Below, one piece after another: positions 14,395-53,711 of a stretch of 64,000 bases of DNA. The DNA comes from Nitrosopumilus oxyclinae (lineage in GTDB: Archaea; Thermoproteota; Nitrososphaeria; Nitrososphaerales; Nitrosopumilaceae). A model generated the notes under the pieces. That model did not search any database, was not told where the DNA came from, and saw only the letters and a list, made by a program, of their open reading frames with translations. Each line of letters starts with the position of its first letter. Position 1 is the stretch's first letter. The DNA is taken from contig NZ_CP026994.1 of assembly GCF_013407165.1 (NCBI RefSeq), positions 1,330,187 to 1,394,186 of the forward strand, given 5' to 3'. Position numbers and translations under genes: made by a program.

Positions 14395-15969
14395 ATGAGC
14401 AAAAAATTGACTGCACCTAGAGAAAATATGTCAGAAACTGATTATGATAAACCTCTACTGGAAAAATTTGAGCAAGAAATTTGGAGTAAAATTCCACATT
14501 TAGAAGGAGACAAAGTAGTCAATGCAACACCACTCATTGATCTGACAAAAGATCTAAAGGAATGTGCAAAAAATCTCTACAAACTAGACATTGCAGATTT
14601 AGACTTGAAAGTGTATGGAAAATTTGATGCTAATTTAGTATCAGGTTCAATCAAAATCAGACCAGCAATTCACATTATGCATGATGCAATTAAAACTGGG
14701 AAATTGAAAAGTAATCAAACAATTATTGAAGCAACATCAGGGAATTTTGGAATTGCACTTGGACAAATGTCAAAATTAGGTCTCACTGTTGTTTCACTTG
14801 TTTCAAGGAAATTACAAGAAGGAGTCTTTAAGGAATTAAGGGATGAAAATATTCGAATAATGGATTTGGATATGGATATTTGTCCCGCTCCTGGAATGAA
14901 AGATAGTGATGCTGATGCATTAAAAGCAAAAGCAACGGCAGCAAATATTCGTTCTCAATTAGCCGAATTGGGTTTTGATCCTACAATTTACGATAAATCA
15001 ATTTCTGAAGTTGAAACACTATTGGCAGCGCAAGACATTATCAATCTTGCAAAATTACTTTCAAAAATGTATGGATGTTTTTGTCCAGAACAATATGATA
15101 ATGAATTAAACATTCAAGCTCATAGAACAATTACAGCAGTAGAAATTGATCAACAATTACATGAAAATGGGGATTCATTAGAAGATTATAGAATTGTATG
15201 TTCTTTTGGAACAGGTGGTACATCTGGAGGATTAAGTAAATACATGAATGAAAAATATGGTAAAAAGGCAATTCATGTTGTATTCCCAATTCCAGGTCAA
15301 GATGTAGCAGGAATTAGAACAAAAGCAAAGGCAGACGGATTAAAATTGTATAATCCAGAGGCATATGCTGCTCAACATGAAGTTGATTTTGGACAAGCAA
15401 AGCACTTACTCAAATTCTTTGTAGACAAAGGTCATGATATTGGTGAAAGTACTGCATTGGCCCTATATTCAATTCTAGAAATGCTCAGTAATGGGGATAA
15501 AGGTAAATTTGTAGTTGTAGTTGCAGACGGTATTGAAAAATATAGGAAAAATCTAGAAGCAATGTCAAGTAATCAGCGTATGCAAGTCTCATTAGATGAA
15601 GCATCAGCAAGTGTACAAGATTATGATAAAATAATATGGGTACATACATCATATACTCCAAAAGAAGAAGGGATTGAAATGATTGCTAAATCTCTAGGAA
15701 TAGATAAAGAGAAAATTGCAATACCCAAAGCCAGTACAATTAATCAATTGTTATCCACACAACAAATTCCTGAAGAATTAAGTAAAGATCTAGATGGCTC
15801 TAAAGGTAAATCGTTGTTAATTTGTATGGCTGGAAACACATCATTAATGACTGCTCAAGTACTTGCAAGTAAGGGCATCGTAACTGAAAGTTTGAATGGA
15901 GGCATAACAAATTTACCAGAAGGACAAGGTAAAAACCCAGGTCAATATATTAAAGCAGCCACCGAATAA
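14395..15969 (+). CDS. Fold-type II PLP enzyme (cysteine-synthase-like) fused to a rhodanese-like domain
   Basis: Residues about 45-400 form a fold-type II pyridoxal-phosphate enzyme like cysteine synthase: the PLP lysine is in GSIKIRP (about 87-93), substrate-binding loop EATSGNFGIA (about 117-126) and phosphate loop SFGTGGTSGG (about 266-275). Residues about 410-520 look like a rhodanese-like domain ending in a CMAGNTS loop, where the Cys would carry a sulfane sulfur. Neither substrate nor product can be read directly; sulfur transfer into an amino acid is a reasonable guess. It is downstream of the MoxR/VWA pair and just upstream of an ASCH protein. Confidence 0.75.
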   Translation: MSKKLTAPRENMSETDYDKPLLEKFEQEIWSKIPHLEGDKVVNATPLIDLTKDLKECAKNLYKLDIADLDLKVYGKFDANLVSGSIKIRPAIHIMHDAIKTGKLKSNQTIIEATSGNFGIALGQMSKLGLTVVSLVSRKLQEGVFKELRDENIRIMDLDMDICPAPGMKDSDADALKAKATAANIRSQLAELGFDPTIYDKSISEVETLLAAQDIINLAKLLSKMYGCFCPEQYDNELNIQAHRTITAVEIDQQLHENGDSLEDYRIVCSFGTGGTSGGLSKYMNEKYGKKAIHVVFPIPGQDVAGIRTKAKADGLKLYNPEAYAAQHEVDFGQAKHLLKFFVDKGHDIGESTALALYSILEMLSNGDKGKFVVVVADGIEKYRKNLEAMSSNQRMQVSLDEASASVQDYDKIIWVHTSYTPKEEGIEMIAKSLGIDKEKIAIPKASTINQLLSTQQIPEELSKDLDGSKGKSLLICMAGNTSLMTAQVLASKGIVTESLNGGITNLPEGQGKNPGQYIKAATE

Positions 15970-51165: not shown

Positions 51166-52497
51166 TTACGCCTTGATCTCTTTACCAAGTAAAGATTTGT
51201 ACAAAAATATAGCATCAGATTCATCCTTTGGTCCTACGACAACTGCAGAACCTCTTTTCATAAAACTAACAGATAATTCATTTGTTCTCAAAGACAAACC
51301 CAAGTCACCTTGATTATCAATTGTAAATCCTTTTTGTTTTCCAATTGCAATAACACCATTAACATCAAGATCAAATGTTTCAGTTGGAGTAATAGAGTAA
51401 GTTCTCTTTCCACGATTACGTCCACACAACTCTTCTAAAATTAATTCTTCTTTTTGTACAACATCAAGTTTTCCTGTTCCACATATTGGACATTCTTCAG
51501 CTCTGAATGTTCTAGTACTGTTAAAATCTAAATTTTCTAAATCAATATGTAAAATTCTTTCAGAAAGATTAGGGGTTTTTCCAAGAATTATTTTTACAGC
51601 TTCTGCAACTTCAATTGCACCAACAATAGAAAGTATTGGAGGATGAACACCTTCAATACTACATGTTGGCATTTTATCCTCATCTAATTCAGGAAACATA
51701 CAAAAATAACATGCAGATTTTTTTGGTAAAACTGTAAAGACTTGTCCTGATGTTCCAACTGCAGCCCCTGTTACAAACGGAATTCCAAACTTAACACATG
51801 CTTTGTTTAATGCATATCTTGCATTAACACTATCAAGTGCATCAATTACAACATCGCACCCTTCAACTACTTCTAATGCAGTGTAATCGTTTACAGATAT
51901 AGATAATGCTTCAATTTTACAATCAGGATTTAATTTCTGTAATTTTTTTGCAGCTACTTCAACTTTAACTTGCCCAACATCATCTTCATCAAACAACATT
52001 TGTCTATGTAAATTAGATAGTTCTATTACATCTCTATCAATAATACGTAAAGCCCCAACACCCATTGTAGCTAACCTAGAAATAATTGGATGTCCTAAAC
52101 CACCAGTTCCAACAACACAAACTTTGGCATTTTTTAATTTTAATTGTCCACCATATCCAATTTCTTCCAACATTACTTGCCTTGAAAATTTATCAAGTTC
52201 TTTTGGAGATAATTCTTCAGAACCACCTGCAACTGCAGGTAAAATGTAAACTTCATCACCATCTTTTAGAACAGCTTCCATGCCACCAGAAAATTTTGCA
52301 TTCTTTCCATTGATGTAGATATTTATCAATGAACGCGGGGTTCCATCACCTTCCAAAACTCTACGCTTAAAATCATCACCCATAATTTCTGAAATCTTTG
52401 CAAAAGCATCAGATAGAGAATCAGCAGAAATCTCAGTTTTCTTCTCCCCACCACTTTGGTTTAGTACAGATGGAATTGTAAAAGTGATATTTGTCAT
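51166..52497 (-). CDS. Fusion of MoaD/ThiS-like ubiquitin-fold domain and E1-like (MoeB/ThiF) adenylyltransferase
   Basis: Residues 1-92 form a ubiquitin-like sulfur-carrier domain ending in Gly-Gly (91-92), which is followed without a linker by an E1-like enzyme: the Rossmann motif VVGTGGLGHP (about 128-137), ATP-binding DRDVIELSNLHRQ, a CYFCMFP and CPICGTG zinc pair, and the catalytic-type Cys in TCSIEG. A further C-terminal part (about 355-443) is of unknown fold. The normal job is to activate a carrier C-terminus for sulfur transfer (molybdopterin, thiamine, tRNA thiolation or amino acid synthesis). Its ATG overlaps the thrC stop. Confidence 0.87.
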   Translation of the reverse strand: MTNITFTIPSVLNQSGGEKKTEISADSLSDAFAKISEIMGDDFKRRVLEGDGTPRSLINIYINGKNAKFSGGMEAVLKDGDEVYILPAVAGGSEELSPKELDKFSRQVMLEEIGYGGQLKLKNAKVCVVGTGGLGHPIISRLATMGVGALRIIDRDVIELSNLHRQMLFDEDDVGQVKVEVAAKKLQKLNPDCKIEALSISVNDYTALEVVEGCDVVIDALDSVNARYALNKACVKFGIPFVTGAAVGTSGQVFTVLPKKSACYFCMFPELDEDKMPTCSIEGVHPPILSIVGAIEVAEAVKIILGKTPNLSERILHIDLENLDFNSTRTFRAEECPICGTGKLDVVQKEELILEELCGRNRGKRTYSITPTETFDLDVNGVIAIGKQKGFTIDNQGDLGLSLRTNELSVSFMKRGSAVVVGPKDESDAIFLYKSLLGKEIKA

Positions 52498-53711
52498 TAA
52501 TTTACTACCGCCGATATTTCTCCAACGTCTGCTTTCATTACAGTTGGTTTTTCTAAAACGTCCATAATTGATTCAGTTGCCTTTAGACCATTACCAGTAA
52601 CATAACATACTACTTTGTCATTTCTATCAATCTTTCCTTGTTCAACCATCTTCTGAAGAACTGAAATAGAAACTCCACCTGCAGGTTCTGTAAATATTCC
52701 TTCAGTTTGTGCAAGAAGTAAAATTGCATCAAGGATTTCTTTGTTATTACATTCTTCTGCAAACCCATTATACTGTTGTAATCGTTTCAAAACATATCTA
52801 CCATCACCAGGATCACCTATTGCTAAACTCTTTGCAACAGTGTCAGGATGCTCAACTGGGATTACTTCTTTACTATTTTTCTTAAATGCGTCAACTATTG
52901 GTGCACATCCATGTGGTTGTGCTGCAACCATATGCATGTTTGAAACATCATCAAGTAATGAGACAGTTTGTAATTCTTCAAATCCTTTACAAATAGCATT
53001 GAGCATTGCACCACTTCCTACTGGAACTATAACTTGATCAGGGACTTGCCAATCAAGTTGTTCTGCTACTTCAAATGAAAATGTTTTAGAACCTTCTACA
53101 TAGTGTGAACGCATGTTAATGTTCACTATACCAATTCCTTTACTATCACCAATTTGTGCAGCTATTGTGTTTGCATCGTCATATGTTCCATCAACTGCAA
53201 TGTAATTTGCACCATAAGATAGTGCTTGTGCAATTTTTGCCATCTCAATATTACTTGGAGCAAATACATGACATGGTAAACCTGCTTTTGCTGCATGTGC
53301 TGCAGTTGCAGATGCTAAATTACCAGTTGATGCACACCCAACAGATGTTAATCTAAATTCTTTTGCTTTAGATATTGCAACTCCAGCAGGTCTGTCTTTA
53401 AAGGAAAATGTGGGATTTACAGAATCATTTTTTATGTAAAGATTGTTTAGTCCTAGTTTTTTTCCAAGATTATCAGCCTTGATAAGAGGAGTCATTCCAG
53501 CACCAATGCTTACAATATTAGATTTTTCCTCTATAGGTAATAATTCAAAATATCGCCAATAGGTATGCTCACGATTAGAAAATGTCTCCTTTGTAATTGC
53601 AGGAAAATTATATTTTACATCAAGTGGGCCAAAACACTCATCGCAGATGTACTTGAAAGCAGTATCATATTCTTTCTTACATTCTCTGCATTGTAATGAA
53701 GTTCTAGTCAA
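52497..53711 (-). CDS. thrC: Threonine synthase
   Basis: This PLP enzyme converts O-phosphohomoserine to threonine. The 404-residue protein has an N-terminal zinc ribbon with C-x2-C (CRECKKEY and CDECFGPLDV, about 8-33), the PLP lysine in SFKDRPAGVA (about 103-112), and GCASTGNLASATAAHA (about 126-141) binding substrate and phosphate. It is translationally coupled to the downstream ubiquitin-like/E1 fusion gene. Start is TTG with a TATA-like box about 26-37 nt upstream. Because related fold-type II enzymes take sulfur from carriers, another substrate cannot be fully ruled out. Confidence 0.92.
   Translation of the reverse strand: MTRTSLQCRECKKEYDTAFKYICDECFGPLDVKYNFPAITKETFSNREHTYWRYFELLPIEEKSNIVSIGAGMTPLIKADNLGKKLGLNNLYIKNDSVNPTFSFKDRPAGVAISKAKEFRLTSVGCASTGNLASATAAHAAKAGLPCHVFAPSNIEMAKIAQALSYGANYIAVDGTYDDANTIAAQIGDSKGIGIVNINMRSHYVEGSKTFSFEVAEQLDWQVPDQVIVPVGSGAMLNAICKGFEELQTVSLLDDVSNMHMVAAQPHGCAPIVDAFKKNSKEVIPVEHPDTVAKSLAIGDPGDGRYVLKRLQQYNGFAEECNNKEILDAILLLAQTEGIFTEPAGGVSISVLQKMVEQGKIDRNDKVVCYVTGNGLKATESIMDVLEKPTVMKADVGEISAVVN

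Follow-up and report, generated by a model that had tools for sequence, protein, structure and literature searches.

Two overlapping minus-strand genes of Nitrosopumilus oxyclinae, "thrC" and a gene for a ubiquitin-like carrier (Ubl) joined to its own activating enzyme (E1), appear to form an archaeal version of the MetM/MetO methionine route, in which O-phosphohomoserine would be turned into homocysteine and the carrier would donate the sulfur. On comparative sequence evidence, we put the probability of this reading at roughly 0.78. The genes lie in a 64,000-nucleotide stretch (contig NZ_CP026994.1, positions 1,330,187 to 1,394,186), here called the window, of a 1.585-Mb genome that consists of one contig. 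MetM of Streptomyces is described as a homocysteine synthase using O-phosphohomoserine (Hasebe et al. 2024, as cited in PMC12172450); because MetM/MetO has been published for Streptomyces, bacteria are already known to have the route, and we class the archaeal pair as a variant of it. The carrier-E1 fusion in itself is already known, from 2010 and 2024, and on our best reading the new element would be the archaeal MetM/MetO-type pairing with a carrier that is fused to E1. The features of the pair were as follows.

51166..52497, minus strand: fusion gene for carrier, E1, and C-terminal domain (443 amino acids, ATG start), a MetO/CysO-like carrier joined to a ThiF/MoeB-type activating enzyme
52222..52497, minus strand: ubiquitin-like carrier domain, residues 1-92 (PF02597, 32.3 bits, E 1.4e-7)
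52222..52227, minus strand: Gly91-Gly92, the end of LPAVAGG and the expected C terminus once the carrier is released
52189..52221, minus strand: junction from Gly-Gly (GG) to E1, residues 93-103, without a start codon in this genome
51487..52188, minus strand: E1 (ThiF) domain, residues 104-337 (249.7 bits)
51169..51486, minus strand: C-terminal domain, residues 338-443, called "TBP-like" in Makarova and Koonin 2010
52497..53711, minus strand: "thrC" (404 amino acids, TTG start), MetM-type subfamily of the threonine synthase family, with a PALP fold (247.4 bits)

A preliminary description of this DNA had reported a carrier that ends in Gly-Gly and runs into E1, and the domain matches agreed, with E1 beginning at residue 104 after the carrier's last residue, 92. 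Its one-base overlap with thrC was also confirmed, base 52497 being shared by the open reading frames 51166-52497(-) and 52497-53711(-).

A ThrC-like subfamily that travels with a sulfur carrier

NCBIfam names the window ThrC a threonine synthase, above the cut-offs of PRK08197 (308 bits) and TIGR00260 (292 bits), and its predicted structure (mean confidence score, pLDDT, 93) had Arabidopsis threonine synthase as the best solved match (Z 52.7, root mean square deviation 1.9, 399 aligned residues) in VIA-align, which served as a second look at Foldseek matches and not as a search. Since the window ThrC is a paralogue, a threonine synthase is the expected best fold match; its sequence and structure relatives also include a cysteate synthase. 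The canonical threonine synthase motifs NPTGSFKDRGM, ASTGNTSAS, and NSxNPxRxEGQKT are replaced in the window ThrC by NPTFSFKDRPA, ASTGNLASA, and VNINMRSHYVEGSKT. A second ThrC in the same genome (L009; L-numbers label loci or genes, and G-numbers label compared genomes) exceeded the TIGR00260 cut-off and carried NPSGSFKDNGM, ASTGNTSAS, and VNSINPFRIEGQKT. Between 41 subfamily members and 12 other ThrC proteins, 13 residues and one gap column were fixed or nearly fixed differently, among them Asn199, Arg201, and Tyr204, where other ThrC proteins have S, N, and R. In a 63-row tree the 44-row subfamily, including cyanobacterial and actinobacterial members, formed one group with support of 100/99, apart from canonical threonine synthase as is expected of a MetM; Streptomyces albulus MetM and the Microcystis enzyme were outside this tree, and the likeness to MetM is likeness to its published description. 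By residues and tree alike, the window ThrC belongs to a separate, well-supported subfamily and is not the ordinary enzyme.

The ThrC gene adjoins a MetO-type carrier gene, and this arrangement was widely conserved. Among 61 genomes, including that of N. oxyclinae, 40 had an orthologue of this ThrC (at least 415 bits; next match, 307), with a carrier directly downstream in 39, fused to E1 in 29 and separate in 10. The exception, G050 (82% complete), had the gene on a 4.9-kb contig without a carrier. This constancy shows that the reading frame is not due to chance. In G041 and G060 the carrier remained with ThrC, and the E1 matches lay elsewhere.

A wider survey took the best 80 of 586 matches in named genomes, many of them near relatives, found with two search patterns derived from the MetM-type subfamily. 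The loci spanned Nitrososphaeria, Bathyarchaeia, Hadesarchaea, Archaeoglobus, Chloroflexi, Nitrospirota, Cyanobacteria, Actinomycetota, and others. Neighbor counts were placed by the match coordinates of all 80 loci; the carrier, NIL, JAMM, and TusA profiles were built from survey-locus and own-genome proteins, and Pfam agreed for each part tested. Matches of the CYSM profile to ThrC, which it also hit, were disregarded. A GG carrier lay within 600 bp downstream on the same strand in 74 of the 78 loci with at least 400 bp of downstream sequence (49/49 archaeal and 25/29 bacterial). As a control, 21 canonical or other ThrC-type loci in archaeal relatives, mostly with about 3 kb on each side and with less in three, contained no carrier, NIL, JAMM, or E1 (0/21).

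The surroundings of the relatives' genes point to methionine. S-adenosylmethionine (SAM) riboswitches were found in 11 of the 32 loci scanned for them (L192-L223), and 10 of these lay on the same strand as the matched stretch and ended 8 to 493 bp ahead of it. The eleventh, in L209, was some 2.4 kb upstream, close to a homoserine dehydrogenase-like frame. In Nonomuraea, too, a riboswitch ended 41 bp ahead of the match, and a GG carrier followed downstream. The S. albulus MetM gene is reported to have a SAM riboswitch upstream and the Microcystis homologue to lack one, and the sulfur-carrier-family gene beside Microcystis thrC is said to resemble metO (PMC12172450). NIL domains occurred in 14 of the 80 loci; all six that were put to Pfam were confirmed, and two of the domains were fused to carriers. 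The NIL domain of Methanosarcina acetivorans L-ASST is reported to bind methionine (PMC12068725). Homoserine-pathway genes or a canonical ThrC, detected with profiles built here, were present in 8/80 loci, seven bacterial and one archaeal (L181), with homoserine dehydrogenase in L205, L181, and L204. One cluster, L212 of Nitrospirota, ran in the order TusA, E1, JAMM, MetM-type ThrC, carrier, NIL, canonical ThrC, a proposed homoserine kinase, aspartate kinase, and cysteine synthase.

The genome itself yielded no full-length MetY/MetB-type enzyme. PF01053 (MetB/MetC/MetY/MetZ) gave five partial matches, of which two passed the Pfam cut-off of 27 (32.9, the top score, and 28.3 bits) while covering about one-third of the profile. 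NCBIfam placed the five with sugar aminotransferases, BioF, aspartate and glyoxylate aminotransferases, and cysteine desulfurases; no MetY type was among the families listed for them (for one match, 25 of 56), and no HcyBio was found in this genome. Within the genus, none of 37 genomes gave a PF01053 match at E 1e-20 or better, and none had HcyBio. MetE (PF01717) was likewise found in 0/37; a published passage places MetH in other ammonia-oxidizing archaea. According to Price et al. 2018, at least one further homocysteine pathway was still to be discovered, and MetM/MetO may be that missing pathway in many lineages. If so, it would explain how abundant archaea of ocean and soil make methionine, given that the enzymes searched for leave their homocysteine step unexplained; the database names, threonine synthase and MoaD-MoeB, would conceal the route.

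In the route proposed here, the carrier, being the N-terminal portion of the E1 chain, would first be released after Gly92, with one of two JAMM proteins as the candidate protease. Judging from its family, the E1 domain would adenylate the carrier's C-terminal Gly, which would become a thiocarboxylate with sulfur from a donor. The ThrC-like pyridoxal phosphate (PLP) enzyme would take the phosphate off O-phosphohomoserine, with the thiocarboxylate sulfur replacing the water that would give threonine. By analogy with CysM/CysO/Mec and from the published MetM activity, the product would be homocysteine itself or its adduct with the carrier, the latter to be hydrolyzed by a JAMM peptidase, and methionine synthase would then convert homocysteine to methionine. 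The preliminary description had suggested a sulfur route from carrier to PLP enzyme that led to cysteine or homocysteine; comparative evidence supports the homocysteine branch well and the cysteine branch less so.

The pair resembles known systems in different respects. As far as the account of S. albulus MetM/MetO goes, both comprise a ThrC-like enzyme and a carrier-type partner gene, the substrate proposed here is the same O-phosphohomoserine, and some bacterial members share the SAM riboswitch; the window pair differs in that it is archaeal, its carrier is fused to E1, and no riboswitch was found with it. With CysM/CysO/Mec of Mycobacterium tuberculosis it has in common the LPAVAGG carrier end, a fold-type-II PLP enzyme, a JAMM peptidase in the genome, and, as proposed here, a phosphorylated amino acid as partner, whereas the window enzyme is of the threonine synthase family, the carrier and E1 are one polypeptide, and the JAMM genes are elsewhere. 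The HcyS route of Wolinella, reportedly the work of Krishnamoorthy and Begley in 2011, is likewise said to feed a protein thiocarboxylate into homocysteine synthesis, but through a PF01053-type enzyme, no full-length member of which was found in this genome. The earlier statement that HcyS serves a fold-type-II enzyme does not hold: its partner is of the MetY type (fold type I).

Several observations weigh against a MetM/MetO-type role. No carrier was within reach in 4 of the 78 survey loci (L199, L209, L218, and L222, where it was 1.1 kb off), although L199, L209, and L218 do have a SAM riboswitch. Bacterial loci L204, L205, L212, L220, and L223 contain a canonical ThrC in the same cluster as the carrier, and the control covers archaeal relatives only; because these five clusters hold a canonical ThrC near the same carrier, nearness alone does not assign the carrier's partner. 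Neither the window nor any of 12 archaeal loci scanned had a riboswitch; this feature of the S. albulus gene, reported missing in Microcystis and found in 11/32 loci, is thus not universal. The Microcystis homologue (51.6% identical to MetM) is reported to act in vitro both as a threonine synthase and as a threonine deaminase and to have given no more than an unidentified peak with sulfide, and methionine did not rise on induction (PMC12172450). Another homocysteine enzyme was present in 6 of the 40 genomes with the gene and 6 of the 21 without it, a difference that is suggestive and not significant. Finally, 12 of 36 same-genus relatives lacked both genes and also the homocysteine enzymes searched for. 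About 3.8 of these absences are expected from incompleteness, and 1 of 11 genomes with 20 or fewer contigs lacked the pair; on the canonical-paralogue tree, joint absence needed 7 changes, at least 4 of them on supported branches. The joint absence had been considered strong evidence for a functional unit and was downgraded to weak, most assemblies being fragmented and the genes adjacent.

Probable release of the carrier from the fusion

The nearest solved chains to the carrier by sequence were M. tuberculosis CysO (3dwg_C, E 1.7e-13) and, in a near tie, 4n6e_B (E 3.1e-13), and the LPAVAGG end is common to all three. The carrier thus has the beta-grasp domain with a GG end and the sequence similarity of a CysO-type protein; a free C-terminal GG, the remaining mark of that type, would arise only by cleavage, as E1 follows directly after GG. 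The E1 motifs GxGGLG and SNLHRQ, Cys279, and two CxxC pairs (336/339 at the domain edge), to which we assign roles by presumed analogy with MoeB, were kept in 7/7 aligned fusions. An AlphaFold model of the fusion (7 sequences) had a mean pLDDT of 57 and, being poor, was left unused.

No separate start for the E1 is evident. At the junction from PAxxGG to FSRQ (21 rows, 19 genomes), ATG occurred in none of the rows, and 14/21 had no ATG, GTG, or TTG; these rows were selected by a GG-demanding pattern, and their GG was not counted as evidence. Where the search did not demand it, GG was kept at the junction in 18/18 fusions listed and was present in 74/74 carriers adjoining MetM-type ThrC. Among these 74, the chain continued past GG by 0 residues in 27, 1-3 in 9, 4-15 in 3, 16-100 in 4 (two cut by a contig end and two NIL fusions), and more than 100 in 31, all of the last being loci with an E1 match. 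In the deeper branches, outside the fused group, separate carriers end at GG. One Cenarchaeum metagenome-assembled genome (MAG) has a carrier that ends in GG-TAA with no E1 behind it (L179, 5539-5811) and another has the fusion (L180), as though the fusion had split naturally at the predicted cleavage site. In L192 and L206 the C-terminal extension behind the carrier GG is of another kind, a fused NIL domain, and it too would have to be trimmed off.

It is unlikely that the fusion stays uncut, with the carrier domain working where it stands or persisting as a structural relic. The long Gly/Ser-rich linker between GG and E1 in G030 would suit a tether, but GG is kept in all 18 fusions listed despite its internal position, free carriers end at GG, the Cenarchaeum pair breaks at that point, and the nine carriers with 1-3 residues past GG also imply trimming. 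Adenylation, moreover, requires a free C-terminal Gly, which an uncut carrier does not have. Release is thus the expectation for the MetM/MetO-type route, and JAMM processing is the likely candidate for cutting after Gly92. Two JAMM metalloproteases, L004 and L005, are encoded in the genome, both away from the locus, and archaeal Rpn11, reported to process a ubiquitin precursor (PMC6043591), is a precedent for JAMM release. The single fused protein offers a direct test case for carrier release.

More tentatively, at somewhat less than even odds, the methionine sulfur carrier of most ammonia-oxidizing archaea sampled may be a pro-carrier joined to its own E1, whose release by JAMM would be obligatory and possibly regulated, gating homocysteine synthesis. 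Nitrosocaldus-like L151 and G037 are exceptions to the joining. The same may have arisen separately in Hadesarchaea, to judge by the scattered placement of L183 (7268-8371), whose carrier-E1 fusion lacks the C-terminal domain and has TusA and a JAMM gene as neighbors. In N. oxyclinae a single carrier/E1 gene would then supply all thiocarboxylate sulfur, because the only other Ubl found is locked in a Cgi121 fusion. This second domain (L002, G000:C1:1289423-1289665 region) is fused after GG to Cgi121, a KEOPS subunit, an arrangement known since 2010, and the genome yielded no free carrier. The Cgi121-fused Ubl may not need activation by E1. Weak matches suggest that it is retained in G014 (56% complete) and G024 (96%), where no E1 match was found.

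Other roles considered

The fused carrier-E1 could instead serve molybdopterin synthesis, tRNA thiolation, or protein modification, as MoaD-MoeB and SAMP/UbaA-like annotations imply. The window protein is the same as the Ubl-E1-TBP fusion already in print (Makarova and Koonin 2010) and the MoaD-MoeB fusion that an mSystems 2024 survey counted in 61/98 Thaumarchaeota and treated under molybdopterin. Makarova and Koonin tie archaeal carriers to tRNA modification; their text does not contain "threonine synthase" and names cysteine synthase among the E1 gene links, and in the 2024 survey ThrC appears only as a CysH fusion in Thermoplasmata. MoeB and UbaA models do match the E1, which reached the cut-off of none of the 25 models listed, and as the sole ThiF-family protein found in the genome it could have side jobs. 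Against these roles, the conserved neighbor is the PLP enzyme, and G041 and G060 keep carrier and ThrC together with E1 elsewhere. Molybdopterin was dropped as the purpose, and is unlikely as such: a search for MoaE, with a control positive in 11/14 named genomes, found none in this genome. Taken together, these roles are quite unlikely to be what the fusion is for.

Very unlikely, too, is that ThrC works as a plain threonine synthase, a reservation of the preliminary description, and that the carrier-E1 encoded beside it in the operon has an unrelated job. The database names, the Arabidopsis structure match, and the activity of the Microcystis homologue would all suit it, but a ThrC with canonical motifs (L009) coexists in the genome, carrier pairing marks the subfamily (74/78 against 0/21), relatives' loci have SAM riboswitches, and both ThrC types stand side by side in some clusters. 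Least probable of all is a CysM/CysO-like synthesis of cysteine from O-phosphoserine and the carrier: CysO is the closest solved structure to the carrier, cysteate synthase is a relative of the enzyme, and Nitrospira and Syntrophaceae clusters also contain cysteine synthase, but it stands there beside the MetM-type enzyme and not in its place, N. oxyclinae has a separate cysteine-synthase-like enzyme (L008), and the riboswitch, NIL, and homoserine-pathway context favors methionine. An Arg220-like resemblance of that separate enzyme to M. tuberculosis CysM, seen by eye, was given no weight, as CysM was absent from the alignments.

Three further observations concern genes outside the pair. TIGR02535, the proposed homoserine kinase, occurred in L212, L205, and L223 near the carrier system and in company with canonical ThrC, aspartate kinase, or homoserine dehydrogenase, a context that supports its still unproven kinase assignment. 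An S-layer-like gene, recognized by eye, adjoins the pair. Elsewhere in the window (14395-15969), a 524-amino-acid PLP enzyme has a cysteine-synthase-like core with an extra C-terminal part and reached the cut-off of none of the 10 NCBIfam models listed.

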